Of a stretch of DNA of 16,009 bases, positions 360 through 16,009 are shown in pieces (the first letter of the stretch is position 1; every line of letters begins with the position of its first letter). Below the pieces are notes generated by a model. The model saw only the letters and a program-made list of their open reading frames with translations. It did no database searches and was not told where the DNA came from. The stretch is from NCBI GenBank assembly GCA_003696125.1, contig RFHZ01000100.1, positions 1 to 16,009 of the forward strand, given 5' to 3'. The DNA comes from Nitrospinota bacterium. GTDB lineage: Bacteria > Tectomicrobia > Entotheonellia > J063. The translations under genes and the position numbers were made by a program.

Positions 360-361
360 GG

Positions 362-1366
362 TTACGGGGTGCCCTGGCAGAGCCGTTCGAGCTGGCGGAG
401 GCTTTGGGTATCTCCCATGGTGATCAGCCGGTCTCCTGCCTCGATGAGTGTGTCCGAGGCCGGGTTGAAGATCATGGCGCCCGAAGACTTCTGGATGGCG
501 ATGATGATGAGGCCGAGCTTTTGCCGGATCCCGGATTCGCGCAGGATGGTGCCGACCAGTTGGGAGTGGGGCCCGACTTCTAGCTCCTCCATAAGCAGCT
601 CGACCCCTCGGGTCTGGCTGGCGATCTCGATGAAATCGACGACCGCCGGCTTGAGGATCGCCTGGGCCATGCGCATCCCACCGATACGGTAAGGGGAGAC
701 CACCCTGTTGGCTCCAGCACGCTGGAGCTTGCGCTCTGTGGCCTCGTTCTCGGCACGGGCCACAATGTAAAGAGAGGGATTCATCCCGCGCGCACTCATG
801 GTGATGAAGACGTTATCCGCATCCGAGGCGACAGAGCTGACCAGTCCCTTGGCCCGTTCGATACCGGCCTGCAGCAAGACATCATCATCGGTGGCATCTC
901 CCCGCACGTAGAGAAAGTGCTCCTCCTCGATCTCCTGGATCAGCTCCGCGTTCCGCTCCACCACCACAAAGGGGAGGCCCTGGGCGTGGAGTTCACGGCA
1001 GACGAAACTCCCCATCCGTCCAAAGCCACAGACGATGAAATGATCTTTCAGGGTTGCAATTTCCCTTTCCAACTTTCGTCTTCCCAGCAGGCTGCGAAGC
1101 TGTCCTTCCACCATCGACTGGGTCAGGGTCCCGATGGTATAGCCGACGATACCGACACCGGCAACGATCAGGCCCATGGTAAAGAGCCGGCTGGAGGGAG
1201 AAAGGGGATGCACCTCTCCATAGCCTACCGTGGTCAGGGTGATGATGGTCATGTAGAGAGAATCGACCAGAGACCATCCTTCCAGCAAGGCGTACCCGGC
1301 GGTACCGACAAGGAGAACACCACAGAGGGCCAAGAGCGCAAAGCGCAGGTGCGTTGTCGCCTCCAC
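362..1366 (-). CDS. two-helix potassium channel with cytoplasmic RCK/TrkA domain
   Basis: A 334-residue inner-membrane K+ channel subunit of the MthK/Kch type, expected to work as a tetramer with a gating ring. Helix 1 is about residues 8-27, the selectivity filter TVGYG is at 46-50 after a pore helix, and helix 2 is about 61-84. A TrkA-N (RCK) Rossmann domain follows, with GFGRMG at 114-119 and an acidic residue after the second strand (VVVER), suiting an NAD-type or other nucleotide ligand. A TrkA-C domain occupies about 245-330. The start is GTG at 1366: an in-frame TAA lies four codons upstream, and the first helix needs this start. The nearest purine-rich AAGGGG lies rather far upstream. 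It is the last gene of the minus-strand block, 80 bases after the HEAT gene. The gating ligand is not predictable from sequence. Confidence 0.9.
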   Translation of the reverse strand: MEATTHLRFALLALCGVLLVGTAGYALLEGWSLVDSLYMTIITLTTVGYGEVHPLSPSSRLFTMGLIVAGVGIVGYTIGTLTQSMVEGQLRSLLGRRKLEREIATLKDHFIVCGFGRMGSFVCRELHAQGLPFVVVERNAELIQEIEEEHFLYVRGDATDDDVLLQAGIERAKGLVSSVASDADNVFITMSARGMNPSLYIVARAENEATERKLQRAGANRVVSPYRIGGMRMAQAILKPAVVDFIEIASQTRGVELLMEELEVGPHSQLVGTILRESGIRQKLGLIIIAIQKSSGAMIFNPASDTLIEAGDRLITMGDTQSLRQLERLCQGTP

Positions 1367-1446
1367 CCGGTTCTTTTACCCCTTCTTTCGTTTGCTCAGA
1401 TTCCTGCTCGCCTCACCCGGTGACATACCCTGCCCGGTGAGTCTGC

Positions 1447-2508
1447 TCAGGGCTCCTCTTCCTCATCCTCCGGCTCATCCCCCTCGCCGAAATCGTCGTC
1501 AAAACCCTCCAGAAATCGGCGGTCAAATTCTTCTCCAAAGCGGTCCCAGGCCTGTTCTGGAGGAGCCCCTTCTCCAGAGTCCTCTGCTTCCAGCTCTTCA
1601 GCCTCTAATTCCATATCAGCGAAGAGGTCAGAGGAGAACCCAGGCCAGTCTGCCGGCAAGTCCTCATCGAATTCTTCTCCCGCTTCCAGCCGGTTTCCCA
1701 GGGTCATGAGGGAAAGCTCTTCGATGGCCTCCTGTGCCATGGTGCGAATCTCCTCATCCTGATCCTGCGTGCAGAGGTAGAGGGTCTGGAGGGCCGACGA
1801 GGTACCCAGTTTGCCCAGGGCCCAGATCGCTTCCAGGCGGATATCTTTATCCGTATGGAAGCAGAATTCTTTCAAGAGGGGGAACGCTTCCTGTATCTGG
1901 GCTTCCCCACAGGCGGAAATCGCTTCTAGCAGGAGGGATTTGTTCTGTTCGCGCAGGGAGGAAAGGAGATAGGAGACCCAGCGCTCATTGCCATTGCGTC
2001 CCATGGCAAAGATGGCACTCTGTCGCATCGCCTCTTCTGGCGAGAAGTAAGCATTTTCGATCAGGTTCAGCACCCGGGGGTTATCGTAGACAAAGCCGAG
2101 GGATTCGATGGCAAAGCGGCGGACCGTTACACTCTCGCTTTCATTCTCAGCAATGCGGAGCAGCTCTTCGATCAGGTGTTCGGTTAAGGTCGGATCAAAC
2201 TCCTCTAATACCCACCCTTCGTAGATATAGCGTCCCAAAACAGAGGCCGCCTTTCCCCGCACCTCGTCGTCCGGATCGGTTTTGCACAGGTGGAGCAGGA
2301 TCTCGAGGTACTCCTCTTCCGGGTAATACCACATGGCTCCCACCGCTGTTTTGCGGATTTCCGGGTCCGGATGCTGCATGAAACCGAGGTAAAGAGGGGC
2401 ATGGTTCTCAGAGAGATTTTCCTCTTCCAGGGAAGCCAGCTCGCGTACCCTGGCCCGCTGCTCGTGAAGAGGAAGCCCGTTGAATTCTCTCCAAAAGTTT
2501 TCCAGCAT
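1447..2508 (-). CDS. HEAT-repeat protein with long acidic C-terminal tail
   Basis: A 353-residue protein built from helical HEAT-type repeats over about residues 30-268, with recurring patterns such as HPDPEIRKTAVGAM, DPDDEVRGKAASVLG, DKDIRLEAIWALGKLG and DEEIRTMAQEAIEEL. The last 85 residues or so are strikingly acidic and probably disordered, ending DEPEDEEEEP. HEAT solenoids usually serve as protein-binding scaffolds; the partner here is unknown and no enzymatic motif is visible. The frame stays open to a TTG at 2580, but ATG at 2508 is the better start because AGGTGA sits four bases upstream and the repeat fold begins after it. It lies 147 bases downstream of the small charged-protein gene and 80 upstream of the channel gene, so co-transcription with polA is possible but not proven. 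Confidence 0.8.
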   Translation of the reverse strand: MLENFWREFNGLPLHEQRARVRELASLEEENLSENHAPLYLGFMQHPDPEIRKTAVGAMWYYPEEEYLEILLHLCKTDPDDEVRGKAASVLGRYIYEGWVLEEFDPTLTEHLIEELLRIAENESESVTVRRFAIESLGFVYDNPRVLNLIENAYFSPEEAMRQSAIFAMGRNGNERWVSYLLSSLREQNKSLLLEAISACGEAQIQEAFPLLKEFCFHTDKDIRLEAIWALGKLGTSSALQTLYLCTQDQDEEIRTMAQEAIEELSLMTLGNRLEAGEEFDEDLPADWPGFSSDLFADMELEAEELEAEDSGEGAPPEQAWDRFGEEFDRRFLEGFDDDFGEGDEPEDEEEEP

Positions 2509-2512
2509 ATCG

Positions 2513-2518
2513 TCACCT
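2513..2518 (-). promoter_or_regulatory. Shine-Dalgarno deciding the HEAT-protein start
   Basis: On the minus strand AGGTGA lies four bases before ATG at 2508-2506. The alternative TTG start at 2580 would add 24 residues of no obvious fold and is less likely. Confidence 0.7.
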
Positions 2519-2655
2519 GCCCATGTTGAGCTGATAATTGCCTGGACATCAACGCTAATCTTAAAGAATTTATCCTCCAACCTGCTCTTCCTTCTCCAGT
2601 TGGTCAGCAGGCATCAGCCGTAACGCAACAACGGCGTGAGGCCAGATACCCTGAC

Positions 2656-2958
2656 CTAAAAAAAGAAGCCCCGTTCTCGCTGGCGCTCCTCGCGGCGTCT
2701 TTCACTTTCATCGCGGCGATCGAGCTTCTCTTGCAATTCTTGTAGCCACTGTTCAATCTTTTTGATGTTGCGTGCTTTTACCTGTTCTTCAAAGTCTGAA
2801 TGCCTGACAAAACGCAGCGCCTCCTCATGCAAAATATTATACGCCTTTTGTAGATTGCCCTGTACTTCCTGTTTGCTGGCCTTGACATAATATTCTGTGA
2901 GTTTGGCATCCCGGAAAAAATGTTTCACCTTTCGATAGACGATCCAGAAAACTTCCAT
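2656..2958 (-). CDS. small charged helical protein, unknown function
   Basis: A 100-residue protein that I do not recognise. It has an aromatic/basic N-terminus (MEVFWIVYRKVKHFF), a central predicted helical hairpin resembling a single TPR-like or MIT-like unit (ASKQEVQGNLQKAYNILHEE), then a helix likely to form a coiled coil (IEQWLQELQEKLDRR). It ends in an alternating Arg/Glu run and FFF. No signal peptide or clear membrane helix is seen. ATG at 2958 follows a purine-rich AAGGTAGGG. The gene begins only 30 bases after the polA stop, so it is very probably co-transcribed with polA; whether it works with the polymerase is open. The amino-acid pattern argues for a real gene, but function is unknown. 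Confidence 0.7.
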   Translation of the reverse strand: MEVFWIVYRKVKHFFRDAKLTEYYVKASKQEVQGNLQKAYNILHEEALRFVRHSDFEEQVKARNIKKIEQWLQELQEKLDRRDESERRREERQRERGFFF

Positions 2959-2988
2959 ACGCCCTACCTTTGTGCTGAAGAAACCTGC

Positions 2989-5715
2989 TTAATGCGCTTC
3001 CAACCAGTTTTGCCCGATGCCGATATCGACCTTAATCGGCACACGCAGTTGAATGGCCCCTTCCATCGCCTCTTTGATCAGCTTTATCGCCTTGTCCTTT
3101 TCCCGCTGGGGGAGTTCAAATACCAGCTCATCGTGCACCTGCAGGAGCATCCTGGTCGCCATCTTCTCCTCCTGCAGGGCCCGGTGGATGGTGATCATGG
3201 CCACCTTGATCAGGTCAGCCGCCGTCCCCTGAATCGGGGTGTTGATGGCCACCTTTTCTGCCGTGTTGCGCACCCGGGGATCTTCACTCTGCAACTCCGG
3301 CAGATAGCGCCGACGGTTTAAGAGGGTGGTGACATACCCGCGCTCGCGCGCCTGCTCTATGGTGCTGTTGATATAGCGGTATACGCCAGGGTAGTGCTCA
3401 AAATAGGCGGCGATAAAGCGCTCGGCCTCGGCCACACTGATCCCGACTTCGCGGGCCAGTCGCTGGGCACCCATCCCGTAGATGATCCCGAAGTTGATCG
3501 CTTTGGCCCGGTTGCGTTGTTCGTCGGTGACCGCCTCTGGAGCGATCCCCAGGATCCGGGCCGCCGTCTGGCGATGGATGTCTTCTCCCTGCTGGAAAGC
3601 TTCCATCAGGTTCTGATCCTGGGAGAGATGGGCCAGGATGCGGAGTTCGATCTGGGAGTAATCGGCCGAGAGGAGGCAGTGGTCCGGGGCACGGGGAATA
3701 AACGCCTTGCGGATTTCCCGTCCCAGTTCTGTCCGGATCGGGATGTTTTGCAGATTGGGGTTACTGCTCGAAAGCCGACCCGTGGCGGTGACCGTCTGGT
3801 TGAACGACGTGTGCACACGGCCGGTAAAGGGATTGACCAGCTTGGGTAAGGCATCGATATAGGTCGACTTCAGCTTGACAATCTGGCGGTAATCGAGGAT
3901 TTTCTGCACCAGGGGATGGGATTTGAACTGCTCGAGCACCTGCACATCGGTGGCATAACCGGTCTTGGTCTTCCTGATCTTCTTGATTCCCAGGTCCTTG
4001 TGAATCTCGAGCTTCTCAAAGAGGATCTTGCCCAACTGCTGGGTCGAGTTGATGTTGAACGTCTCACCGGCCAGGGCATAGATCTCCTGCTGCAACTCTT
4101 CCAGACGCTGGGCCAGGGTCTGCGACATCCTCTTCAGCAAGGGGAGATCGAGCAGGACCCCGGTCTTTTCCATATCGGCCAGGACACTGATCAGCGGGAT
4201 TTCCACCTGCTGGAAGAGATCAAAGGTCCCGGTCTCCCGCAGTTTGGGTTCGAGCACCTGTCGCAACCGCAGCGTGATATCCGCATCCTCACAGGCATAG
4301 CGGCTGATCTCTGCCAGGGGGACCTCACGCATGTTTTTCTGCTTCTTCCCGGAACCGATCAGAGCCGTGATCGGGGTCTTCTGGTAGTTGAGGTATTCGA
4401 GACTCAACGCATCGAGGTTGTGTTGCCGCCTGGAGGGATTCAGCACATAGGAGGCGACCATGGTATCAAAGTCGATCCCCTGCACCGGGATATCGTAGCG
4501 GGAAAGAGCCAGGATGTCGTACTTGATGTTCTGGCCGCATTTCCGAATTCTCGGATCGGCCAGGATCGGCCGCAGGCGCTGCAGGATATCGGATGGCATT
4601 CCAGCCCCCTCCGTTGCGGGAGACGGCAGGAGGGTCTGTTCTGGAAAGACGAGCGGCACGTAGTATGCCTCGTGGGGAGCAAAGGCAAAGGCGATACCGA
4701 TGATCTCCGCCTGCAGCGGGTCGATATGCGTGGTTTCCAGGTCAAAGACAAAGCTAGAAGCATGCGAAAGACGGGCCAGGAGTTCTTCCCAGGCCCGGGC
4801 ATCCGTGACCGTATGGTAGCGGACCGTTTCCTGCGGGGAAGAAGGAGCCAGTTCTCCCAGGAGGCTGGCAAATTCGAGTTGCTGGAAGAGGGTACGTAAC
4901 CGTTCCGTGTCCGCTTTCCCGACCCGCAGTTGTTCCAGATCGATGGACAGGGGGACATCGGTATGGATGGTGACCAGCTCTTTGGAGAGGAGCGCTTGCT
5001 GGCCATAGGCCAGGAGGTTTTCCCGGATACGCTTCTGGGAGATTTCCCCGGCGTGGGCCAGCACGGCCTCGACCGTTCCGTACCTCTGGATCAGCTTTAC
5101 CGCCGTCTTCTCCCCGATCTGGGGTATTCCGGGGACATTATCCGACTTATCCCCCATGAGAGCCAGCACCTCTACCACCTGCTCCGGTGGGACCCCCAGT
5201 TTTTGCCTGACCCTCTCGGGGTCAAGGATCTCACGCTCTTCCCCCTCCTTGCGCAGGCTATAGATCTTTATCCGCTCCGAAACCAACTGCATGAAATCTT
5301 TGTCTCCGGTAACCAGCCAGACATCTATGCCTTGCGCTGCCGCCTGTTTGGCCAGGGTGCCCATGACGTCATCCGCTTCGTACCCGGGAATCTCCACGAT
5401 GGGGATCTGCAGGGCGGCGATGATCTCTTTGATGCGGGGGAGTTGGGGGAGCATCTCATCCGGCATCTTCTCCCGCGTGGCTTTGTACTCGGCGTACTTT
5501 TCGTGGCGGAAGGTCGGCTCCGGTGTATCAAAGATCACGGCCAGGAAGGTGGGCTGCTCCTCCTGTAACAGTTGGAGCAGGGAGACGGTAAACCCGTATA
5601 CGGCGCTGGTATTCTCTCCACGCGAGGTATAGAGGGGATTACGAATAAAGGCGAAGTAGGAGCGATACGCTAACGCCGAGCCATCGATTAAAAAGAGTCG
5701 TTCCGGTGTACCCAT
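2989..5715 (-). CDS. polA: DNA polymerase I
   Basis: A full-length 908-residue family A DNA polymerase, used for Okazaki fragment maturation and excision-repair synthesis. The N-terminal 5'-3' exonuclease (flap) domain covers about residues 1-265 (FLIDGSALAYRSYFAF, YEADDVMGTLA, GDKSDNVPGIPQIGEKTA). The 3'-5' proofreading domain appears active: Exo I FDLETT near 322, Exo II GQNIKYD and Exo III Y-A-C-E-D are all present, unlike in Taq-type enzymes. The polymerase domain has motif A (ADYSQIELR, about 683), motif B (RNRAKAINFGIIYG, about 732) and motif C (VHDELVFE, about 858). ATG at 5715 gives the usual N-terminus, though the ribosome site is weak (AGGAACGG some distance upstream). A small charged-protein gene follows after 30 bases. 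Confidence 0.98.
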   Translation of the reverse strand: MGTPERLFLIDGSALAYRSYFAFIRNPLYTSRGENTSAVYGFTVSLLQLLQEEQPTFLAVIFDTPEPTFRHEKYAEYKATREKMPDEMLPQLPRIKEIIAALQIPIVEIPGYEADDVMGTLAKQAAAQGIDVWLVTGDKDFMQLVSERIKIYSLRKEGEEREILDPERVRQKLGVPPEQVVEVLALMGDKSDNVPGIPQIGEKTAVKLIQRYGTVEAVLAHAGEISQKRIRENLLAYGQQALLSKELVTIHTDVPLSIDLEQLRVGKADTERLRTLFQQLEFASLLGELAPSSPQETVRYHTVTDARAWEELLARLSHASSFVFDLETTHIDPLQAEIIGIAFAFAPHEAYYVPLVFPEQTLLPSPATEGAGMPSDILQRLRPILADPRIRKCGQNIKYDILALSRYDIPVQGIDFDTMVASYVLNPSRRQHNLDALSLEYLNYQKTPITALIGSGKKQKNMREVPLAEISRYACEDADITLRLRQVLEPKLRETGTFDLFQQVEIPLISVLADMEKTGVLLDLPLLKRMSQTLAQRLEELQQEIYALAGETFNINSTQQLGKILFEKLEIHKDLGIKKIRKTKTGYATDVQVLEQFKSHPLVQKILDYRQIVKLKSTYIDALPKLVNPFTGRVHTSFNQTVTATGRLSSSNPNLQNIPIRTELGREIRKAFIPRAPDHCLLSADYSQIELRILAHLSQDQNLMEAFQQGEDIHRQTAARILGIAPEAVTDEQRNRAKAINFGIIYGMGAQRLAREVGISVAEAERFIAAYFEHYPGVYRYINSTIEQARERGYVTTLLNRRRYLPELQSEDPRVRNTAEKVAINTPIQGTAADLIKVAMITIHRALQEEKMATRMLLQVHDELVFELPQREKDKAIKLIKEAMEGAIQLRVPIKVDIGIGQNWLEAH

Positions 5716-5733
5716 GGTTTTTTATCCGTTCCT

Positions 5734-5780
5734 GGGGAGGAGAGGAGATACTCTCCTCAGTCAGCTCCTCCTCTCCCCCC
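5734..5780 (-). repeat. complementary purine/pyrimidine tracts in the polA leader
   Basis: Just upstream of polA a perfect 7-bp inverted repeat, GAGGAGA/TCTCCTC with a 3-base loop, spans 5742-5758. A second purine tract (minus-strand GGGGGGAGAGGAGGAG at 5765-5780) can pair imperfectly, about 6+6 bp around a 2-base bulge, with the pyrimidine tract at 5734-5748. The minus-strand RNA could therefore form either of two alternative stems near the start codon. There is no T-run after the stem, so it is not a typical intrinsic terminator. Confidence 0.45.
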
Positions 5781-5803
5781 AAACCTGCATCCACGATAGT
5801 ACC

Positions 5804-5833
5804 AATATACACCAAAGCCCTGGCGAAAGTAAA
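5804..5833 (-). promoter_or_regulatory. candidate sigma-70 promoter for polA
   Basis: On the minus strand TTTACT (5833-5828), an 18-base spacer and TATATT (5809-5804) form a plausible -35/-10 pair. Predicted transcription begins near 5797, giving a leader of about 80 bases that would contain the purine/pyrimidine repeats. Pattern match only. Confidence 0.4.
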
Positions 5834-5874
5834 GAGAGAAAAGCGCATGGATCGCAGAGAAGAGGAGGCAGGGG

Positions 5875-6885
5875 TTAGGAGGTAATGAGCCGTTGCTGCA
5901 CCTCTTCCAGGACCCGTGCCATGACGATGGCCAGTTTTCCTTGCTGGCGACACCCGGCCGCTTTCTTGTGTCCCCCTCCCCCAAACTGCTTGGCAATCGC
6001 CTGCACGTCAAAGGGGCCTCGAGAACGCAGGCTGATCCGGATCTTTTCCGGCTCGTATTCCTGGAAGAGCATGCCGACTTCCACACCGGTAATGGAGATC
6101 GTGTAATCGACAAACCCTTCTGTATCTGCATCGCGGAACTCGGGACGGTTTAAGGTCGCGTGGTCCAGGTACATCACCGCCACTTTTCCCCCGTAGTGCA
6201 TCTCCAGTTGTTGCAGGGCGACACCCAGCAGCTTCAGGGTGGCAAAGGAGTGATCGTAGAAGAGGCGCTCGGCCACCATCTGGACATCGAGATCGCTCTG
6301 CTGCAAAAGCTCGGCACAGAGTCGCAAGGTCTTGCTGGTCACCCGCGAGTAGCGGAAACGACCGGTATCAAACACGATGCCGGTGTAGATCTGCGTGGCC
6401 AGAGCCGTGTCCAGCGGAAGCCGGAAGGCTTTACACAGGGAGTAGAGGACTTCGGTAGAGGCGCTGGCCTGGGGATCGACGAGGTTGAAGCGGCCAAAGC
6501 GGGCATTGCCCGGATGGTGGTCGATATTGATGATGCTGACCTGCGAGGGAAGCAGGGTCTTCACCTTCCCGATCCGATCCAGCTCCGGGCAATCGAGCAC
6601 CACCAGGACCTCTGGAGTAAACGTGAGGGGGTTACCGTTTAGGGACTGAATGGTAGAGAAATCGACCAGGAAGTTGAGGCGGGTTGAGGGGGTGCCATCG
6701 ACCAGGATACCGTAGCGTTTGCCCAGGAATTGCGCAATCTTCCCAAAGGCGAGCATGGCGGCTATCCCATCTCCATCCGGATTGACATGAGAGGTGATCA
6801 GGAGGTTATCCGCCCCCGCCTCCTGCAAAAAGGTGACGATTTCTCTTTCTATGGCGGACAGTGATCTGCTACTGGAAGCATCCAT
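5875..6885 (-). CDS. DHH/DHHA1 phosphoesterase, NrnA-type oligoribonuclease/pAp phosphatase
   Basis: A 336-residue DHH-family phosphoesterase. NrnA-type enzymes degrade short RNA oligomers and dephosphorylate 3'-phosphoadenosine 5'-phosphate; some relatives act on cyclic dinucleotides. All metal motifs are present: NPDGD (Asp 37 and 39), VVLDCPE (Asp 98), IDHHPGN (122-124) and GIVFDTGRF (Asp 173). The C-terminal DHHA1 domain carries the substrate-binding GGGGHKKAAG at about 302-311. No extra CBS, PAS or membrane domain is fused, which favours NrnA over GdpP or tRNA nucleotidyltransferase-linked forms. The start is ATG at 6885, with AGAAGGAAG five bases upstream, rather than an in-frame GTG at 6921. 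It lies 159 bases upstream of polA and 100 downstream of the radical SAM gene. The exact substrate cannot be fixed from sequence. Confidence 0.9.
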   Translation of the reverse strand: MDASSSRSLSAIEREIVTFLQEAGADNLLITSHVNPDGDGIAAMLAFGKIAQFLGKRYGILVDGTPSTRLNFLVDFSTIQSLNGNPLTFTPEVLVVLDCPELDRIGKVKTLLPSQVSIINIDHHPGNARFGRFNLVDPQASASTEVLYSLCKAFRLPLDTALATQIYTGIVFDTGRFRYSRVTSKTLRLCAELLQQSDLDVQMVAERLFYDHSFATLKLLGVALQQLEMHYGGKVAVMYLDHATLNRPEFRDADTEGFVDYTISITGVEVGMLFQEYEPEKIRISLRSRGPFDVQAIAKQFGGGGHKKAAGCRQQGKLAIVMARVLEEVQQRLITS

Positions 6886-6937
6886 GTATTCTTCCTTCTG
6901 TCTATACTCTACGATACGCACCTCGCTCTATACCGCA

Positions 6938-6966
6938 TTCCTAGCAGAAAAGCCTCCAGAAGTCAA
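6938..6966 (-). promoter_or_regulatory. candidate promoter for the DHH phosphoesterase
   Basis: Minus-strand TTGACT (6966-6961) is a strong -35 match. After 17 bases comes TAGGAA (6943-6938), a poor -10. It lies in the 100-base gap upstream of the gene. Weak support. Confidence 0.25.
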
Positions 6967-6985
6967 CTCTAATCTCGATCCTTTG

Positions 6986-8050
6986 CTATTTTCCGGCCTC
7001 CCATTCTGCTCTGAGTCCCACAGCCTCCCAGATGTCTGGCGGCTCCATGCTCAGATAGAGTGGAGTGTGAGGACTCACCTCCCTGATCCAGCCGATCAGT
7101 TTCCGGTAGATGTGCAGGCGCAGGGGACGGAAGTAGCGGTACTTCCCATCGGCACTCGGTACAAATTCCCCGGTCCAGATCCGGCTCTTGGGAAAGCGTT
7201 CCCGCATGATCTGGCCCAGTTCCGGCATGTAGCGCAGGAGGCCGATCCCACAGGAGCTGATCAGGGAGGGATCGAGAGAGCGGAAGAGCTCACAGATCAT
7301 GGCCTGGTAGTCCTCTTCCCACTGGGGATAATAGACGACCGGGTCCAGGCGGATACCGATCGGATAGCCGGCCTGCTGGCAGGCACGAGCGGCGGCAAGG
7401 CGCTGCTGGAGGGAAGCGGTCCCATGCTCGCAAAAGCGGATCACCGGATCAGGGTTGAAGGTCCAGGCCAGGATGGTCCGGCCATGGTGAGGAAGGGAGA
7501 GGAGATGCTCGATCTGGTTGCTCTTGGTGCGCAACTCCAGGGTGGCACGGGACAGGGTGGCAAAAAGGGGGATGATAAAGGTGGAGAAGCCGGTGAGATG
7601 ATCGAGGGCCAGGTTATCGACGAGTTCACCTCCGTGGAAATAGCACTCATCCTCTGGAAAGGCGGCCAGCACCTCCTGGATAGCGGTGCGAAGGCCTTCC
7701 CGATCGACGAAGATGACCGGAACAGCATGGTCATGGTAAGATTGCAGATAGCAGTATTGACAGTCAAAGATGCAGTTGTGCTCGTGGGCCAGGTAGAAAT
7801 CGCGCTGGTGACGCCGTCGTTTCTCCCGGTTCACCGGTTTCACCCAGGCCCCACGCTTTGCTGCCAGGGCCAGGGCGCGTTTTTCCTGCCGGAAGCGGCT
7901 CTTCACGTTGCCGGCACCTGTGGGCAGGTGGTGATAGTCATCCACCAGGAGCACCGGCGTGGTGGGGAAGCGGGAGCAGATGTGGTGGGTCAGGGGCATC
8001 TGCTCTACACCACGTTCAACATAAATGACCCGGGGAGCAAAGTGATACAC
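6986..8050 (-). CDS. spore photoproduct lyase-like radical SAM protein
   Basis: A 354-residue radical SAM protein of the SPL family. The iron-sulfur cysteines are C93, C97 and C100 in CIFDCQYCYLQ, the C-x3-C-x2-C-Y-L pattern typical of SPL proteins. N-terminal family features (PRVIYVERGV, then a central YHHLPTG/FRQEKRALALA stretch) and C-terminal SPL-like segments (ILAWTFNPD, GYPIGIRLDPVVYY) support full-length membership. At the place of the hydrogen-donor cysteine of true spore photoproduct lyase (Cys141 in Bacillus subtilis) it has Glu142 in FHGGELVDNLALD, so dipyrimidine repair is doubtful. The start is GTG at 8050: AAGGGAG lies seven bases upstream, and the open frame further up overlaps the ParB-like gene and reads as an Arg/Ser-rich shadow. 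Only four bases separate it from the ParB-like stop, so the pair is translationally coupled. Confidence 0.87.
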   Translation of the reverse strand: MYHFAPRVIYVERGVEQMPLTHHICSRFPTTPVLLVDDYHHLPTGAGNVKSRFRQEKRALALAAKRGAWVKPVNREKRRRHQRDFYLAHEHNCIFDCQYCYLQSYHDHAVPVIFVDREGLRTAIQEVLAAFPEDECYFHGGELVDNLALDHLTGFSTFIIPLFATLSRATLELRTKSNQIEHLLSLPHHGRTILAWTFNPDPVIRFCEHGTASLQQRLAAARACQQAGYPIGIRLDPVVYYPQWEEDYQAMICELFRSLDPSLISSCGIGLLRYMPELGQIMRERFPKSRIWTGEFVPSADGKYRYFRPLRLHIYRKLIGWIREVSPHTPLYLSMEPPDIWEAVGLRAEWEAGK

Positions 8051-8054
8051 GCGA

Positions 8055-9083
8055 CTACTCCCTTGCTGTTCCTGCCGGCAGGGTTTCTCCCTGGAGGATG
8101 GCAAAAAGCGTGTGCAGTCCCTCCTGGCGCTCTGGGGCCTGGAGGGCAGAGAGAAGCGCTTGCAGTTCTTGGTCGGTGCGGGGGAACAGCCTGACGGTGA
8201 GCGAGTTCCCCTCAAAGTGGGGCGGAGAGGAGATTTCGATCCGAGGGGGGAGGGAGAGTGCCTGTACCGTCTCGCGGAAGAGGCGCTCCTGCGTGCTTAG
8301 AAGCGGATAGCGGAGCCGGTGTAGCCGTTGACGGAGATGTTGACAGCGCTTCCTGGGCGGCAACCGGTTGTCGGTGAGGACCTCTCGCAACTCGGGTCTC
8401 TCCAGGATATCTGGCATACTGGAGCGCAGCGTTGCCTTCAGGTCGAGCAAAGAACCGATAATCTCCCGCGTTTCGTTCAGGTTGGGGGCACACGGTTCGA
8501 TGACGCGGGTCCAGAAACAGATGCGTTCCTGCTCTGACAACGGGAGGAGGAGAGCGGCCTGCTCCGGGGAAAGGGTCCCATGATGCAACGCCTGTTGCAG
8601 GCATAGATCCAGGGTGGGGAAGGCCAGGTAGCGCTCGACAGCCGGTAGGGTCGGGGGAATCTTCAAGAGAGGAGCAACCGTTGTGGCGAGCTTTTCCAGA
8701 GAATAGCCGAGCAGGTGGTGAAATTTTTGCAGCACAACCCCCTTTTCCAGCGGGGTGTAGGAGCGATGCCCGATATCTTCCTGCAGGCTCATCCAGAGCC
8801 CCTTTTCCAGGGTGATCGCCTCAGGGGGATAGCAGAGGGCGGGGAGGGGAGAATACCCGAGCTGTTGACAGGCCAGGAGACGCCGGTACCCGCAGAGGAC
8901 CTGGTATCCCCCTCCCCCCTGTTGCCGCAACAGGAGGGGATGGAGCAGTCCTACGTGCCGGATGGAGTGTACCAGATCATCCACGACCGGAAAGCGGGTA
9001 TAGACAAACTGCAGGGTGGTCGCTTCCTGGAGGGAAAAAGCCTCCAGAGGGACATGCTGCAGGGTGGGTTGCCAGGAGGCCAT
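8055..9083 (-). CDS. ParB/Spo0J-like nuclease-fold protein (orphan)
   Basis: A 342-residue protein with an N-terminal ParB/Srx-like domain. The partner-switching region (LVHSIRHVGLLHPLLLR, 37-53) and a variant of the GERR box, YQVLCGYRRLLACQQLG (60-76), are clear. A variant of the E-N-x-x-R box appears as EDIGHR at 102-107, followed by PLEKG. A helix-turn-helix-like middle (YSLEKLATTVAPLL, LSPEQAALLLPL) and a poorly conserved C-terminal half follow. ParB proteins are CTP-dependent DNA clamps that load at parS; no parA gene and no parS site were seen here, so a role in chromosome partition is not supported. ATG at 9083 has AAGGGAG four bases upstream; an upstream extension to 9182 has no family resemblance. 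It ends four bases before the SPL-like gene, suggesting a shared task, perhaps DNA-related. Confidence 0.8.
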   Translation of the reverse strand: MASWQPTLQHVPLEAFSLQEATTLQFVYTRFPVVDDLVHSIRHVGLLHPLLLRQQGGGGYQVLCGYRRLLACQQLGYSPLPALCYPPEAITLEKGLWMSLQEDIGHRSYTPLEKGVVLQKFHHLLGYSLEKLATTVAPLLKIPPTLPAVERYLAFPTLDLCLQQALHHGTLSPEQAALLLPLSEQERICFWTRVIEPCAPNLNETREIIGSLLDLKATLRSSMPDILERPELREVLTDNRLPPRKRCQHLRQRLHRLRYPLLSTQERLFRETVQALSLPPRIEISSPPHFEGNSLTVRLFPRTDQELQALLSALQAPERQEGLHTLFAILQGETLPAGTARE

Positions 9084-9102
9084 ACTTCTCCCTTGATCAA
9101 TC

Positions 9103-9111
9103 TGGTATAAT
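9103..9111 (+). promoter_or_regulatory. extended -10 promoter, probably for the lptF-type gene
   Basis: TGGTATAAT is a perfect extended -10 element (TG-N-TATAAT). The -35 position (around 9083-9088, TACTTC) is weak, as is usual for extended -10 promoters. Predicted start is near 9118, giving a leader of about 144 bases before GTG at 9262. Confidence 0.5.
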
Positions 9112-9139
9112 GTATAGACACAGAGAGGCAAAGGCACAA
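9111..9139 (-). promoter_or_regulatory. candidate promoter for the ParB-like/SPL-like operon
   Basis: Minus-strand TTGTGC (9139-9134), 17 bases, then TATACA (9116-9111), with a leader of about 20 bases to ATG at 9083. Its -10 touches the -10 of the opposing promoter at 9106-9111, so both could not be occupied at once. Pattern match only. Confidence 0.35.
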
Positions 9140-9211
9140 AAGCTAGGGACACGGGCACAAAGGATGTGCACTCAGTCCTCATTACTCGTTACTCATCACC
9201 GTATCCATTGT

Positions 9212-9241
9212 ACCTGGTTGGGGGAAGGGATGCAACCAGGT
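9212..9241 (+). repeat. perfect 9-bp inverted repeat before the lptF-type gene
   Basis: ACCTGGTTG (9212-9220) and CAACCAGGT (9233-9241) are exact reverse complements around a 12-base purine-rich centre. The right arm ends 20 bases before the GTG start. It may be a dimeric repressor operator or an RNA hairpin in the leader affecting translation; no T-run follows, so it is not a terminator. Confidence 0.6.
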
Positions 9242-9261
9242 TCCGGCATAGGTAAAGGATT

Positions 9262-10434
9262 GTGAAGATCATCCATCGCTACGTACTGCGGGAAATAGTG
9301 ACCCTTTTTGTCCTCTGCCTATGCTCTTTTACCCTGATCCTCCTTATCGGGAACCTCTTTAAGCTGGTCGATCTGGTATTGAACAAGGGCCTGCCCACCT
9401 TTTTCCTGCTCAAGCTGCTCAGCTTTCGGCTCCCCTCCCTGCTCGTGTTTACCGTGCCCATGGCCCAGGTGGTGGCAACGATCATCGTCTATAGCCGGCT
9501 CAACGGGGATAATGAGATTCTGGCCTTGAAAACCGCAGGCTACAGCCTGGCTCAGCTTCTCTTCCCCAATCTGGTGTTCGGCTTCTGCCTTTTTGGGGTG
9601 ACGCTTTACCTCACCCTGGTCGGGATTCCGCAGGGACATACCCGGTTTCGGCAGGCGCTCACAGAAGCCCTTTTTTACCTGCCCCGCTTTGAGATCCGGG
9701 AGAAGGTCTTCTATACCGAGATCGAGGGGATAGTCCTCTATGTGCATGAGATTCCCCCTTCCCGGAACCTGATGAAGGGAATCTTCCTCTCTGACCGGCG
9801 GGATGGGGATGCTCCTGTGACCATTACAGCCGAGGAGGGGCGGTTGTCCATCGATCCGGATCATTTTACCGTGGTGCTCGAGCTGAAGAATGGAACCATA
9901 CATCGGCGGGGAGAGAGGCGGGGAGAGTATCAATGGATTCGTTTTGACCAGTATACGCTGGCCATCCCGATGGGGGGTGGGGCACTGCGGAAGGGACGTC
10001 GTAAAAGTACCAAGGAGATGATGGTAGGAGAGCTCTGGGAACACATCCAGTCCCTGCGCCGGGCTCAAAAGCCTTATAAGACTCTGCTGATCAGGTTCTA
10101 CCAGAACTTTGCCCTCCCGGTCGTTTCCCTGCTGCTCGGGATCATCGGTCCTCCTCTCGGCATCCTGAATCGTCATTCGGGCCGGTCAGGTGGGTTATTG
10201 ATCGGGGTCCTCCTGATCCTCCTCTACTATGTGGCCCGTACCGGAGGGGAAACGCTGGGAGCCAGCGGGATGCTCTCCCCTTTTCTTGCCGCCTGGTTAC
10301 CGAACCTGCTGTTGCTGGGACTCGGGATCATAGCCGTTATCCGGGCCCAGAAGGATATTCCGCTCGAGTTAGGGAAGCATATCTCGGTATGGGGACAACG
10401 CTTGATCTGGCGGGATGCTTCGAAAACAGAGTGA
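9262..10434 (+). CDS. LptF/LptG (YjgP/YjgQ) family lipopolysaccharide export permease
   Basis: A 390-residue inner-membrane permease of the LptB2FG transporter that extracts lipopolysaccharide and hands it to the periplasmic LptC/LptA bridge. The N-terminus MKIIHRYVLREIV is the family signature. Membrane helices lie at about 11-35, 52-78 and 100-123; a periplasmic beta-jellyroll of about 125-270 follows (ITAEEGRLSIDPDHFTVVLE). Three more helices lie at about 282-302, 309-327 and 337-361. The coupling segment DNEILALKTAGYSL at 83-96, which contacts the LptB ATPase, is intact. GTG at 9262 follows AGGTAAAGGA closely. F and G cannot be separated with confidence from sequence alone, and the partner permease is not adjacent. 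It implies an outer membrane. The EamA gene follows 130 bases later on the same strand. Confidence 0.9.
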   Translation: MKIIHRYVLREIVTLFVLCLCSFTLILLIGNLFKLVDLVLNKGLPTFFLLKLLSFRLPSLLVFTVPMAQVVATIIVYSRLNGDNEILALKTAGYSLAQLLFPNLVFGFCLFGVTLYLTLVGIPQGHTRFRQALTEALFYLPRFEIREKVFYTEIEGIVLYVHEIPPSRNLMKGIFLSDRRDGDAPVTITAEEGRLSIDPDHFTVVLELKNGTIHRRGERRGEYQWIRFDQYTLAIPMGGGALRKGRRKSTKEMMVGELWEHIQSLRRAQKPYKTLLIRFYQNFALPVVSLLLGIIGPPLGILNRHSGRSGGLLIGVLLILLYYVARTGGETLGASGMLSPFLAAWLPNLLLLGLGIIAVIRAQKDIPLELGKHISVWGQRLIWRDASKTE

Positions 10435-10564
10435 TCGGTTCATTTCCTGCAACGAAGCACACCTGACCACCAAACCGGGCATAAAAGATTTGCTACTCGG
10501 TACGCATTAGAACACTGGGAGAAGGGGGAGAGGTATTTACAAGGAACCGCATCTCCGTGTCGTC

Positions 10565-11443
10565 ATGCTGGTACTCCTGCTCTGCCTGCTCTGGGGCGGC
10601 AACATCGTCTCCATCAAAGTGGCCTTAGCCGCTCTGCCTCCCCTGGCTCTGGCCGGTCTCCGCTTCCTCTTTGGTGGGGGAGCGCTTCTCTGCTGGGCCT
10701 TGGGACAACGGGTCCCTATCAGGATTACCCGCCAGGAGCTTATTCCTCACCTGATCAACACCCTCCTCTTCGTTCTCCAGATCGGGATCATGAATATCGG
10801 GGTATTCTACACCCTGGCCACGCGGGCTTCGGTCCTGTTCTACGTCTATCCCTTCTTTGTTGCGCTCCTGGCTCACTATTTCCTCCACACCGAGCAACTG
10901 ACACTGCGCAAAACCGGGGGCATGCTATTGGCCTTTGGAGGAATCGTGGCTGTCTTTTCCGAAAAGTTGCAGATGAGCGGGGTCATGCTCGGTGATGGGG
11001 CCATCCTCCTCTCTGCTTTCCTCTTGGGTGCCCAGACCATCTATATCACCCGGATCGCCCGTACCATCGCCCCCATCCGCATTGTTCTCTGGCAATGTTT
11101 TCTCGGTGTGCCCCTCTTCTTCCTGTTGAGTCTCTGGTGGGAAAACGGTCCCACAGGACCCTTTTCCTGGCCTGTTCTCCTGGCCATCCTCTATCAAGGG
11201 CTGATCGTGGCCGGCTTCTGTTATCTCACCTGGACCGTCTTGATCCGTGATTATGCCCCTTCCTGGGTCTCTTCCTTTTTCATGAGTACCCCGCTTTTCG
11301 GCGTGGCCCTGGGGGCCCTCCTCCTGGGAGAGCCGCTGAGCAGAAACCTCCTCTTAGGGGCAGTGCTGGTTGCCACCGGTCTCTACGTCATCACACGCCC
11401 GGAGAGGCAAAAAAGGGGAGTGCTTGCGCAGCAAAAGGAATGA
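10565..11443 (+). CDS. EamA/DMT-superfamily transporter
   Basis: A 292-residue inner-membrane protein with two tandem EamA domains and about ten hydrophobic helices. The first domain begins LLCLLWGGNIVSIKVAL and contains PPLALAGLRFLFGG. The second begins near DGAILLSAFLLGAQTIY and ends with STPLFGVALGALLLGEPLS, the typical last-helix motif. Members export amino acids, metabolites or drugs; the substrate cannot be predicted. ATG at 10565 gives the standard N-terminus, but no good ribosome site sits at the usual distance: AAGGAA is about 20 bases upstream, so translation may be weak or begin slightly upstream. No intrinsic terminator is seen between it and the permease gene, so read-through is likely. 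Confidence 0.9.
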   Translation: MLVLLLCLLWGGNIVSIKVALAALPPLALAGLRFLFGGGALLCWALGQRVPIRITRQELIPHLINTLLFVLQIGIMNIGVFYTLATRASVLFYVYPFFVALLAHYFLHTEQLTLRKTGGMLLAFGGIVAVFSEKLQMSGVMLGDGAILLSAFLLGAQTIYITRIARTIAPIRIVLWQCFLGVPLFFLLSLWWENGPTGPFSWPVLLAILYQGLIVAGFCYLTWTVLIRDYAPSWVSSFFMSTPLFGVALGALLLGEPLSRNLLLGAVLVATGLYVITRPERQKRGVLAQQKE

Positions 11444-11483
11444 CGGCTGGCATACCGTTCATCCCCTCTCTTCCATTTTCCGG

Positions 11484-11512
11484 TTGCTTCCCTGTTTCCC
11501 ATCGGGTATAGT
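11484..11512 (+). promoter_or_regulatory. candidate sigma-70 promoter for the sigma-54 activator gene
   Basis: TTGCTT (11484-11489), exactly 17 bases, then TATAGT (11507-11512; five of six matches to TATAAT). Predicted start is near 11519, giving a leader of about 170 bases before ATG at 11690. Pattern match only. Confidence 0.45.
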
Positions 11513-11524
11513 TAGAAAATAAGA

Positions 11525-11613
11525 GTCTCGTCTGTATCCCTCGAAAACGACGCTCCAACACATATGTCTCTTCTCTTCTCCCTCTGAGCCTCTTTCTCTC
11601 CTACATACGAGAC
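11525..11613 (+). repeat. long-range inverted repeat in the activator leader
   Basis: Arms at 11525-11536 (GTCTCGTCTGTA) and 11602-11613 (TACATACGAGAC) match as reverse complements at 11 of 12 positions, seven of them contiguous, with 65 bases between. If transcribed from the promoter at 11484-11512 this would close a large stem-loop in the 5' leader. Alternatively the arms are paired protein-binding half-sites. Confidence 0.4.
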
Positions 11614-11689
11614 GCTGTCGCTATTGGGTTTTTCCTGGTGCAATCCAGGAAGAGCAACCAAAACAAGCCAGATAAGGGAGGAGATGAAG

Positions 11690-13081
11690 ATGGAATCAAG
11701 GAATCCCAGAAGTGCATCCCTCCTTGTTGTTGATAACGCCTGTGTTGAGCGATCCATGCTGGTGCAGTGGCTGACCCGTGAGGGATATCAGGTCGATGAG
11801 GCCACGAGTCCGGGCGAAGCGATCCAAAAGCTGGAACAGCAGCGGTACGATGTAGTGATTACCGAGCGCAGCCTGGATGGAGAAGGGGATCTCGGCCTTT
11901 TAAAGGCATCAAGAGTGCATGCACCCCATACCGCCGTGATCCTTTTGGCCACCTCTGGCAGTATCGATTCGGCTGTCGAGGCGATGAGATTGGGGGCATG
12001 CGATTATCTGACCAAACCGGTGAGCCGGCAAAAGCTACGGGACACGATCCGGCAGGCGGTGCAACGGCAGAAGCCCCGGACGACAAGCCTTGCCCTGCCG
12101 GAGTCACCATCACACCGGTACCGCGCGCAGGGTATTATCGTCACCAGTCCCAAGATGCTCGCGGTGCTGGAAGCAGCATCCCTGGTGGCGCAAACCTCCG
12201 CGAATGTCCTGATTCAGGGGGAGAGTGGTACCGGCAAGGAGTTGCTGGCCCGGGCGATACATGCCTGGAGTGATCGGGCTTCAGGTCCCTTTATTCCTAT
12301 CGACTGTGGAGCCCTCGCCGAAACCCTCCTGGAGAATGAACTTTTTGGTCATGTAAAGGGTGCCTTTACCGGGTCCCTGGTCCTGAAGCGGGGACTGTTC
12401 GAGGAAGGGCAGGGAGGGACCATCTTTCTGGATGAAATCGGGGTGATGCCGGTTGCGCTGCAAATGAAGCTCCTGCGTGTCCTGCAGGAACGCATGATTC
12501 GGCGCATCGGCAGCACCACTCCTACCTCGATCGACGTACGTATCCTGACCGCCACCAATCAGGATCTGAAAACGCTTGTCGCACAAGGGGATTTTCGTGC
12601 CGACCTCTACTATCGTTTCAACGGCGTGGTGCTGACCCTTCCCCCCTTGCGCGAACGACAGGAGGATATCCTGGTGCTGGCACCCTACTTTGTGCAGCAC
12701 TTCAGCCAGCAGGTGGGAAAGCCGATGCGCGGTGTCTCGGCAGAGGCGATGACCATCCTGCTGCACCATAGTTGGCCGGGGAATGTGCGGGAACTGCAGA
12801 ACGTCATCGAGCGGGCCGTCATCTTCAGTCGCTCAGAGTGGTTGCTTCCGGAAGCGCTTCCTCCAGAGCTTTTACGACAAGAAGGCGCCAACGTATCCCG
12901 TCCGCCGGGGAGCATGACGTTAGCGGAGCTGGAGAAGACGCATATCCTGGCGGTCCTCTATAAACACCATGGGAATCAGACCCAAACGGCAAAAGCGCTG
13001 GGGATCAGTCGAGCCACGCTCTGGCAGAAGATGAAGAAGTACGGGATAAGCGCGCGACAGATAGCAGTTCAGCACCGTTAA
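11690..13081 (+). CDS. sigma-54-dependent activator (NtrC family) with degenerate receiver domain
   Basis: A 463-residue enhancer-binding protein: receiver domain (about 8-125), AAA+ domain (about 150-375) and Fis-type helix-turn-helix (about 420-463, [20 protein letters not shown]). Walker A is GESGTGKE (177-184), Walker B IFLDE (244-249), and arginine-finger segment FRADLYYR is present. The sigma-54 contact loop reads GAFTGS (224-229) instead of the usual GAFTGA. In the receiver, the phospho-acceptor Asp is replaced by Glu59 (VVITERS) and the second acidic-pocket Asp by Asn16 (VVDN), while Thr88 and Lys109 are kept. Glu there can imitate phospho-Asp, so activity may be constitutive or ligand-driven. 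No histidine kinase gene is adjacent. Start ATG 11690 has GGAGG eight bases upstream; ATG 11684 is too close to it. It probably acts at the sigma-54 promoter at 14242. Confidence 0.93.
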
Positions 13082-13173
13082 GGGGGCCGAGCCCGGTAAA
13101 ACAGGGGGATGCAGCCTCAATAGCTGCCTGTGGTGGTTCAGGCCTGCTTTGGCCGTGGGAAGAGGAGACCCTG

Positions 13174-14019
13174 ATGGCAAAAACCACGCTACTCCCTACG
13201 GTAACCGCTGTCCGCATGGTTTGGGCGATGACCGGCAGGTTTTCTAATGACGAGTCATCGAAGACCATGGCGACGTACGTCGAGGATGCCCTGAAGCAGA
13301 TTGAAGAGCAAGCGCAGATGCAGGGCAGCAGTGAAGAAAAGAGTTATGTGCCGAGTGCCATCGCCACCATGAAATCCAGCCTGCGGAGCCTGGACACTGC
13401 CTACAAGGGTCGCACCCTGAACTTTGAAGAGAATGAAAAGTTACGTGCCGCCTATCTGGAATCGGTGAAAGAGAGCCTGAGCTTCGGGAGCAAGGCGCAA
13501 GACTTTCTTAAGTCGTTGCCCACGATGACTGTTGGGGCCGCAGGTGGTGTGACGGTTGCGCAGGTCGCTGGCGTTTCTGGAACCATGCTATGGGGGATAG
13601 GCCTGCTTCTGGCCGCTTTAGGCTATCTGGTCAACCTGTGGTTTGTCCGGTTGGCCCGTCAGCAAAGGCAATTGCTCTATGTGACGCAGGACTACGAACG
13701 CGGCCTGTACTATGCTCAGTACGTCAGTCGCGTCACGGTCATCCTGCTCGGTCTCTTCCTGGATTTAGAGCGATTGCACAGGAGGGTATTTGGGGAAAAC
13801 TACGAAACGGACACCAATCCCAGCACCCTCGAAGCGATTATCGATGATATTCTGGCCGGGGTGCGCCCCACTTTTTGTCCTTACGTCCATAAACACATGC
13901 GTGACAGGAAGGTCACGCCTGCCTTGTGGGCACTGTGCGAAAGCGGCGATGCTGAGGCGGTGCATATGTGCCCGCTGTGGGAAGGGCAGCGTGAGATGCC
14001 TGTCACTACGAAAAAATGA
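13174..14019 (+). CDS. unrecognised membrane protein with Cys/His-rich C-terminal segment
   Basis: A 281-residue protein I do not recognise. Residues 1-115 are mostly polar and helical (EDALKQIEEQAQMQ, SSLRSLDTAYKGR). A Gly/Ala-rich hydrophobic stretch at about 118-158 could form a membrane hairpin or one long helix, and a further hydrophobic segment lies at about 184-198 (RVTVILLGLFLDLER). The C-terminal part holds Cys235 and His239 (FCPYVHKHM), Cys255, and His264/Cys266 (HMCPLW), spaced like a metal-binding site; zinc is an inference. ATG at 13174 has GAGGAG six bases upstream. It lies 92 bases after the sigma-54 activator on the same strand with no clear terminator between, so the two are probably co-expressed. 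It may be a membrane sensor or anchor for the regulator, but nothing in the sequence proves this. Confidence 0.78.
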   Translation: MAKTTLLPTVTAVRMVWAMTGRFSNDESSKTMATYVEDALKQIEEQAQMQGSSEEKSYVPSAIATMKSSLRSLDTAYKGRTLNFEENEKLRAAYLESVKESLSFGSKAQDFLKSLPTMTVGAAGGVTVAQVAGVSGTMLWGIGLLLAALGYLVNLWFVRLARQQRQLLYVTQDYERGLYYAQYVSRVTVILLGLFLDLERLHRRVFGENYETDTNPSTLEAIIDDILAGVRPTFCPYVHKHMRDRKVTPALWALCESGDAEAVHMCPLWEGQREMPVTTKK

Positions 14020-14063
14020 GCTTTCGGTTACGCAGCTTCTCTCCATCTCCTCAGACGGGCAAG

Positions 14064-14084
14064 AAGATAAGCGTTTAATATCTT
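14064..14084 (+). repeat. AT-rich inverted repeat AAGATA/TATCTT
   Basis: Perfect 6-bp arms at 14064-14069 and 14079-14084 with a 9-base centre, 45 bases after the stop of the unrecognised membrane protein. It could be a protein-binding site or a weak RNA hairpin; it is too AT-rich and lacks the T-run for a good terminator. Confidence 0.35.
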
Positions 14085-14117
14085 AACGGTATAAATCTGG
14101 AAAAGTGCTTTGTTTCT

Positions 14118-14140
14118 TGACAGTGGTAGTCTTGCTGTCA
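14118..14140 (+). promoter_or_regulatory. dyad TGACAG-N11-CTGTCA, candidate upstream activator site
   Basis: Perfect 6-bp inverted repeat, arms at 14118-14123 and 14135-14140, centred about 139 bases before the predicted sigma-54 start. This is the distance at which enhancer-binding proteins normally sit, and such dimeric Fis-type helix-turn-helix proteins bind dyads of this size. Assignment to the regulator at 11690 is inference. Confidence 0.45.
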
Positions 14141-14150
14141 GGTGATCACC
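14141..14150 (+). promoter_or_regulatory. perfect 10-bp palindrome GGTGATCACC
   Basis: The palindrome directly abuts the TGACAG/CTGTCA dyad and is centred about 123 bases before the predicted sigma-54 start. It may be a second activator site or the site of another factor. Confidence 0.4.
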
Positions 14151-14241
14151 CCCTCTTCTCTCCCTCAGGTAGTCGTTGGGGGCCTTTGTCAGGGCTCCTC
14201 CTGTCCTTTCTCCTTCCTGTTTTTTCCTGCCTTCCCATCAT

Positions 14242-14257
14242 TGGCATCGAAATTGCC
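14242..14257 (+). promoter_or_regulatory. sigma-54 (-24/-12) promoter of the FAD oxidoreductase gene
   Basis: TGGCAT, five bases, then TTGCC closely match the consensus TGGCAC-N5-TTGCA, with the essential GG (14243-14244) and GC (14255-14256) separated by exactly ten bases. Predicted start is near 14268. It faces the oxidoreductase gene and lies 1.2 kb downstream of a sigma-54 activator gene, which strongly supports a functional link. Confidence 0.72.
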
Positions 14258-14441
14258 TGAGATAACGTGTCCGGTACCATAGCATGGGTGCCGTCCACGG
14301 CGGTAGCCTGTCCGCATTGCGCCCCAAGCGGGGTCGAGAGGACGTCGTCGCTGAGTATCGCATCCCGGGGTATCGCCTGGTTCTCACACTGGAATTCACC
14401 CTAGCAGGAGGACAAGCAGGCAGACAAGAAGGAGAAAAATT

Positions 14442-15875
14442 ATGGCAGACCTGCAAGTAGCGCTACACATGGGTGGGGAAACCATCCTTGAAACGGCAAC
14501 CGTTGAAGCATTCAAGACATGTTTGCGTGGCGAAGTGCTTACACCAAGCGATGCGGGGTATGATGAGGCCCGTCTGCTTTGGAACGGCATGCACGACAAA
14601 CACCCTGCCCTTATTGCCCGGTGTACCGGCGTGGCCGATGTGATTGACGCCGTCAATTTTGCCCGTACCCATCATCTGGTGGTCGCAGTGAGAGGGGGCG
14701 GTCATAACGTGGCCGGTACCGCCTCCTGTGATGGTGGCATCATGATTGACCTGTCACTGATGAAAGGGATTCGGGTGGATCCCGAGTCCCGGACAGTGTA
14801 TGCGCAAGGTGGCGCGACCTGGGGCGATGTGGACCGGGAAACGCAAGTCTTCGGTTTAGCCACGCCGGGCGGTGTCGTTTCCACCACAGGGATTGCAGGG
14901 TTGACGCTGGGCGGTGGACTGGGGTGGCTGCGCAGGAAACACGGCTTGAGCATCGACAATGTGTTGTCGGTGGATATTGTCACCGCGGACGGTCAGTTTC
15001 ACACCGCCAGCGCGACCCAAAACGCCGACCTGTTTTGGGGCATCCGAGGAGGTGGTGGCAATTTCGGGGTGGTGACCTCGTTTGTGTACCGTCTCCACCC
15101 TGTCGGCCCGATGGTGACATTGTGCGCTCCCTGGTATCCGGTAGAAACGGCCAAAGAGGTGCTCCCTGCCTGGCGTGATTTCATGGCGTCGGCTCCCGAA
15201 GAGCTCTCTTCGCAAGCGTTGTTCTGGACCGTTCCCCCTGTTTCGGATTTCCCCGAAGAGGCCCACGGCAAACGCGTCGTCATTCCTGCTGCCGTCTATA
15301 GTGGTCCTGCAGACGAAGGGGAACGGGTCGTCCAACCCCTGCGGGAATTGGGCACACCGCTGGTGGACTTGAGTGGACCGATCCCCTGGACGGTTCTGCA
15401 AAGTGCATTTGACCCCTTCTTTCCCAAGGGAGAGCAGCTTTACTACTTTAAGTCACGCTACTTAAACGACCTGAATGACGCCACGATTGACGCGATCATC
15501 CCTCAGGCTTCCAATCCTCCACAGCCGATGGTACTGGTGGTGCTTTGGCATAACGGAGGTGCCATGAGCCGTGTTGGTCCAGAGGAAACGGCCTTCATGG
15601 GTCGCGACGCGCCCTATCTCTTGAGCGTCGATGCCATCTGGAACAATCCCCAGGATACTGCAGAGGTTATCACCTATGCTCGTGACTTCCTGGCGGCGAT
15701 GACCCCCTACTCCCCCGGCGGGCTCTACGTCAATTTTGCCGGGCTGGGGGAGGAAGGGGATGCGCTCGTGCGGTCGGCATACGGTGCGAACTATGCACGG
15801 CTGGTGGCGCTGAAAAACACGTACGATCCCACAAACTTATTCCGCCTCAACCAAAATATCGCACCGACCGTTTAA
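14442..15875 (+). CDS. FAD-linked oxidoreductase, berberine-bridge-enzyme (BBE) family
   Basis: A 477-residue flavoprotein oxidase or dehydrogenase of the vanillyl-alcohol-oxidase fold. The FAD-binding domain spans about 50-225, with RGGGHNVAG, whose His88 is the expected 8-alpha-histidyl FAD attachment, and the glycine-rich GLTLGGGLGWLRRKHGLSIDN segment. The cysteine used for a second covalent bond in bicovalent members (G-x-C-P-T) is Val146 here (GVVSTTG), so single attachment is expected. The C-terminal BBE motif YDPTNLFRLNQNIAP is intact and the length is normal. No signal peptide is visible, so it is probably cytoplasmic. ATG 14442 has AAGGAG seven bases upstream. Relatives oxidise sugars, alcohols or secondary metabolites; the substrate is unknown. 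Expression probably depends on the sigma-54 promoter at 14242. Confidence 0.93.
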   Translation: MADLQVALHMGGETILETATVEAFKTCLRGEVLTPSDAGYDEARLLWNGMHDKHPALIARCTGVADVIDAVNFARTHHLVVAVRGGGHNVAGTASCDGGIMIDLSLMKGIRVDPESRTVYAQGGATWGDVDRETQVFGLATPGGVVSTTGIAGLTLGGGLGWLRRKHGLSIDNVLSVDIVTADGQFHTASATQNADLFWGIRGGGGNFGVVTSFVYRLHPVGPMVTLCAPWYPVETAKEVLPAWRDFMASAPEELSSQALFWTVPPVSDFPEEAHGKRVVIPAAVYSGPADEGERVVQPLRELGTPLVDLSGPIPWTVLQSAFDPFFPKGEQLYYFKSRYLNDLNDATIDAIIPQASNPPQPMVLVVLWHNGGAMSRVGPEETAFMGRDAPYLLSVDAIWNNPQDTAEVITYARDFLAAMTPYSPGGLYVNFAGLGEEGDALVRSAYGANYARLVALKNTYDPTNLFRLNQNIAPTV

Positions 15876-16009
15876 CAGTGTTATCGTCCGTAGAGTGGGT
15901 TGAGGCTTAGGGTCCAACGACAGCATCTGGCCTGACTGTAGGGAGCACCAGGCATGTCGCCGGCATCGATGCGGCCAGCAGCGCCAGAGAGATCGCACGA
16001 TGTCGCTAT
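15876..16009. other. no gene supported at the right edge
   Basis: The last 134 bases show a 10-bp palindrome GCATCGATGC (15963-15972) and a weak GCCTG/CAGGC pair without a T-run. Short open frames exist on both strands, but none has a ribosome site or family resemblance. Confidence 0.4.

Follow-up and report, generated by a model that had tools for sequence, protein, structure and literature searches.

An orphan sigma-54 activator, a candidate sigma-54 promoter and an EncM-like flavoenzyme gene at one locus, with a gene of an uncharacterised membrane-protein family between them

Genes and features of the locus

The window—the whole stretch of DNA analysed, positions 1-16009 of a contig, 16,009 bases long—belongs to a 4.18-Mb draft genome in 990 contigs, which is ~95% complete and ~8% contaminated. 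Three genes and a promoter match had been reported in it by an initial annotation made from the sequence alone, and all of them were found in place. Together with two dyads, they make up the following features.

11690..13081, plus strand: orphan sigma-54 activator (bEBP), from Pfam domains, paralogue alignment and SD
13174..14019, plus strand: predicted membrane protein of 281 aa, of an undescribed family, from the lack of a library match, its relatives and AlphaFold2
14064-14084 and 14118-14140, no strand: two dyads with six-base arms, possible activator sites, not above chance
14242..14257, plus strand: candidate sigma-54 -24/-12 promoter TGGCATCGAAATTGCC, from consensus score, genome-wide enrichment and recurrence beside bEBP genes
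14442..15875, plus strand: EncM-like FAD-dependent oxidoreductase (FAD_binding_4 + BBE), from domains, EncM alignment and SD

The gene upstream of the activator resembles, by eye, an EamA-type transporter, and among the open reading frames of the 16-kb window there is no histidine kinase gene adjoining the activator. Only 134 bases of the window remain past the flavoenzyme gene, so the transcription unit may extend further. Elsewhere in the window, on the minus strand at 6986-9182, an ORF of 409 aa that resembles a radical-SAM photolyase and a ParB-like one of 375 aa, both named by eye from their translations, overlap by ~160 nt.

The activator combines a receiver domain (PF00072, 1e-19), a Sigma54_activat AAA+ domain (PF00158, E = 5e-65) and a Fis-type HTH (PF02954, E = 5e-16). 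Its reading frame and HTH are intact, as are the Walker A and B motifs (GESGTGKE and FLDEIG), while its sigma-54 contact loop reads GAFTGS as against the consensus GAFTGA. The best start is ATG 11690, with the SD GGAGG 7 nt upstream; an in-frame ATG at 11684, from which the receiver residues are numbered here, touches this SD. Aligned with bEBP paralogues of the same genome, which carry D-D / D / T / K, the receiver has D17-N18 / E61 / A89 / K111 and thus lacks the D-D / D / T(S) / K quartet of phosphorylatable receivers: one pocket Asp has become Asn, the phospho-acceptor Asp Glu and the switch Thr/Ser Ala. These domains and residues agree with the sigma-54 activator with a non-phosphorylatable receiver that had been described, and because of this receiver chemistry phosphorylation by the usual route is not expected. 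In the bEBPs LuxO (PMC4878744) and NmpR (PMC6211767), Asp-to-Glu at this position mimics phosphorylation and activates the protein, which makes a partly "on" state, by analogy, the simplest and a probable inference for this activator. E61 may, however, merely mark decay and not mimicry, because the acidic-pocket and switch residues are gone too. No orthologue of the activator was found among 386 genomes, the best match reaching 47%.

The flavoenzyme gene is preceded by the SD AAGGAG, and its product fits the earlier description of an FAD oxidoreductase with a BBE domain: both FAD_binding_4 and BBE are present at 14442-15875. It is similar to EncM over its full length (E = 4e-130), and H88 aligns with the flavinylated H78 of EncM, making it the predicted attachment residue; from this alignment, covalently bound FAD is likely. 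Within the same class, for which the comparison set consists of four other genomes only, the nearest EncM-like relative is in G004, at about 49-51% identity, and tblastn found no bEBP similar to the activator on the 10.4-kb contig that carries it.

The membrane protein and its relatives

The 281-residue protein consists of an N-terminal helical part, a hydrophobic hairpin at ~126-162, a long helix and a C3H tail, in which C235, H241, C255 and C266 are invariant across relatives and form a plausible metal site. Its initial description as an unrecognised membrane protein with a Cys/His tail stands, as there is no convincing family match in Pfam, NCBIfam, PHROG or the PDB and the tail residues are invariant. 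Holin-like and ribosomal matches in Pfam and PHROG were dismissed as weak, those in Pfam falling below the cut-offs, and so was LeoBC, a weak and partial match (0.0013) among defence-system models. An AlphaFold2 model, built without the L096 sequence, is all helical and of moderate confidence, with a mean pLDDT of 75, and is poor at 119-129 and at the extreme C terminus. Foldseek returned nothing at E < 0.2 for this model, and the best VIA-align result (Z 8.5 over 89 residues) was to unrelated long-helix proteins, in a range that is uninformative for helical models.

Relatives at 38-76% identity occur in MAGs of a gammaproteobacterium (75%), Methanothrix (60%), Chloroflexi (51%) and Desulfobacterales (42%), in Chlorobaculum (two pieces at contig ends, 62-76%) and in a further Chloroflexi-class genome (38%). 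In Chlorobaculum sp. 24CR the gene (L006/L007) is divided between two contig ends, and a repeat or insertion element may interrupt it. Among 60 relatives of the query genome, only the query itself has the gene; surveys of wider groups yielded one additional case in 393 genomes and none in 395, and no relatives were found in phages, plasmids or viral contigs. On L005, the Desulfobacterales relative (2494-3348) is flanked by a gene resembling an MBL-fold hydrolase and by a large gene that is uncharacterised; a metallopeptidase-like gene is also present upstream. Rubrerythrin/ferritin-like genes, which stand within ~6 kb of the relatives L002, L003 and L096 and are absent here, were rejected as a conserved context because they are too common.

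The candidate promoter in its genomic setting

The site TGGCATCGAAATTGCC matches 9 of the 11 consensus bases of TGGCAC-N5-TTGCW and has the GG-N10-GC core with near-consensus -24 and -12 elements. Calling it near-consensus was therefore fair, with the reservation that it ends in TTGCC instead of TTGC(A/T). It is intergenic and on the sense strand, and 3.3% of shuffled versions of the 422-nt gap contain one as good by chance, on one strand. Upstream of the activator and membrane-protein genes, no sigma-54 site scores above 7/11.

The genome encodes RpoN and holds 45 TGGCAYN5TTGCH sites as against 3 for the reversed control pattern (~15-fold). When 30 of the sites were sampled and open reading frames called crudely, about two-thirds fell between genes; those ending in C did so more rarely than those ending in T (4/9 versus 14/20). 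Furthermore, 6 of 18 bEBP genes or fragments, counting the activator's, are followed on the same strand by a site no more than 1.2 kb past the stop codon, where 0.12 would be expected, and this recurrence is significant without the window (P ~2e-7). At the other five the site is 180-356 nt downstream, which makes a bEBP beside its own sigma-54 promoter a normal layout in this genome. The same layout, a bEBP gene adjoining its own presumed sigma-54 promoter, is known from Desulfovibrio (PMC4641369). At our locus the distance from the activator gene is 1164 nt, with another gene between.

Sites elsewhere in the genome touch on other functions. Those 180-356 nt past bEBP genes on contigs C431, C762, C638 and C777 include two that precede genes resembling, by eye, a multihaem cytochrome (C431) and a polysaccharide-export protein (C638). 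On C252 (L056, L097) a bEBP gene is closely followed by a site and then by groEL, and small heat-shock protein genes on C456 (L061) and C692 (L071) are each preceded by a site, which suggests that chaperones of this organism are under sigma-54 control.

The dyads upstream of the promoter, which had been counted as part of the arrangement, are indeed present but do not exceed chance (2 seen versus 0.59 expected, P = 0.14). The second, TTGACAG-N11-CTGTCA, has no other exact match in the genome.

Interpretation and closest known systems

The reading that we favour, and consider reasonably probable, is that an orphan bEBP of the NtrC/AtoC type drives the flavoenzyme gene that follows it via the sigma-54 promoter. 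The activator, probably held partly "on" by its Glu phosphomimic or else set by its expression level, a ligand or a partner, would open the promoter from a binding site upstream of 14242-14257; the transcript, with an untranslated leader of ~170 nt, would encode an EncM-like oxidase/oxygenase carrying covalent FAD. The membrane-protein gene, separated from the activator by a 92-nt gap, may share the activator's transcript. The link is plausible because rpoN is present, the sites are enriched and five other bEBPs precede such a site; the 1164-nt distance, the TTGCC ending, the dyads at chance level and the lack of an activator orthologue among the 386 genomes count against it. The earlier claim that the oxidoreductase is the activator's output is thus plausible in itself, as an ordinary case. 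It is, on the other hand, a minority possibility, which we take seriously, that the -24/-12 match is fortuitous or serves another activator, with the bEBP acting elsewhere and the EncM-like gene having a promoter of its own. The less reliable TTGCC ending, the intervening gene and the presence of 17 or more further bEBP genes or fragments in the genome all fit this, and a chance of ~3% for such a site in the gap leaves some room for coincidence; the intergenic position on the sense strand, the ~15-fold enrichment of the pattern and the recurrence of bEBP-adjacent promoters speak for a functional site. That the activator is decaying, having lost transcription activation along with its receiver quartet and its consensus loop, would account for three altered catalytic or switch positions and one altered loop residue, but is very unlikely given the intact reading frame, Walker motifs and HTH. 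Characterised bEBPs, moreover, tolerate variant loops; in D. vulgaris, targets have been assigned to activators with altered GAFTGA motifs, GAYTGS among them (PMC4641369).

The initial annotation had gone further and proposed that the membrane protein replaces a histidine kinase as dedicated signal input, with the oxidoreductase as output. Its gene does adjoin the activator in the same direction, no kinase gene, such as adjoins several of the genome's other bEBPs, is present in the 16 kb, and the invariant C3H set could bind metal. Nevertheless, we regard this as highly unlikely. The check that had been suggested, conservation of gene order in relatives, went against the proposal: in six other genomes, tblastn found no match to this activator or this flavoenzyme in the sequence flanking the relatives (up to ~8 kb on each side, contig permitting). 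The RpoN DNA-binding domain is present in the query, L002, L005 and L007 genomes and was not found in the L003, L004 and L096 genomes, which are drafts and of which one is the Methanothrix archaeon; sigma-54 use is not expected in a Methanothrix archaeon. Upstream of the relatives in the rpoN-bearing L002 and L007 genomes no sigma-54 site scores 6 or more, and the L005 relative has one 9/11 sigma-54-like site 360 nt upstream. With no similar bEBP in these flanks and three carrier genomes without detectable RpoN, feeding bEBPs is not the purpose of this family, and 38-76% identity across phyla, independent of bEBPs, suggests a stand-alone function. The membrane protein is therefore most likely not a signal input but an independent gene of a rare, patchily scattered family. 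A private recruitment in this lineage, in which the C3H-tailed protein would be a metal- or redox-sensing input to a kinase-free activator controlling the flavoenzyme, has adjacency as its one point in favour and is highly unlikely.

If the regulatory link is true, the locus is one more local sigma-54 switch, its receiver a natural phosphomimic, from a sparsely sampled bacterial class. Novelty is limited to the uncharacterised membrane-protein family, which is the more durable lead: found in Methanothrix and at least four bacterial groups, strongly conserved and without a named homologue, it merits study by itself, apart from sigma-54.

The closest counterpart of the flavoenzyme is EncM, the FAD-dependent oxygenase of enterocin biosynthesis, with which it shares, besides full-length similarity and the flavinylated His, the O2-pocket residues V135, V136 and T139, kept as V145, V146 and T149. 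It departs from EncM in having Thr at position 148 where EncM has His138 and T-W at 126-127 in place of L116-L117, and unlike the EncM gene it has no polyketide genes in sight in the 16-kb window; an activity as N5-oxide oxygenase is possible. As for the activator, the claim that no described system has this arrangement was overstated, because bEBPs whose receiver cannot be phosphorylated are known in the FleQ/FlrA type (PMC10723142). The activator resembles these in its receiver-like domain without phosphorylation chemistry, and differs in its lack of a flagellar context and of a FleN-like ORF in the window. It differs from the NtrC/AtoC-type bEBPs catalogued in D. vulgaris (PMC4641369) in having no kinase alongside, a receiver that is not canonically phosphorylatable and a gene between itself and the promoter. 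What it has in common with that set is the REC-AAA+-Fis HTH architecture and a gene beside a presumed sigma-54 promoter; its GAFTGS loop is similar to the variant GAYTGS of one EBP in that set.
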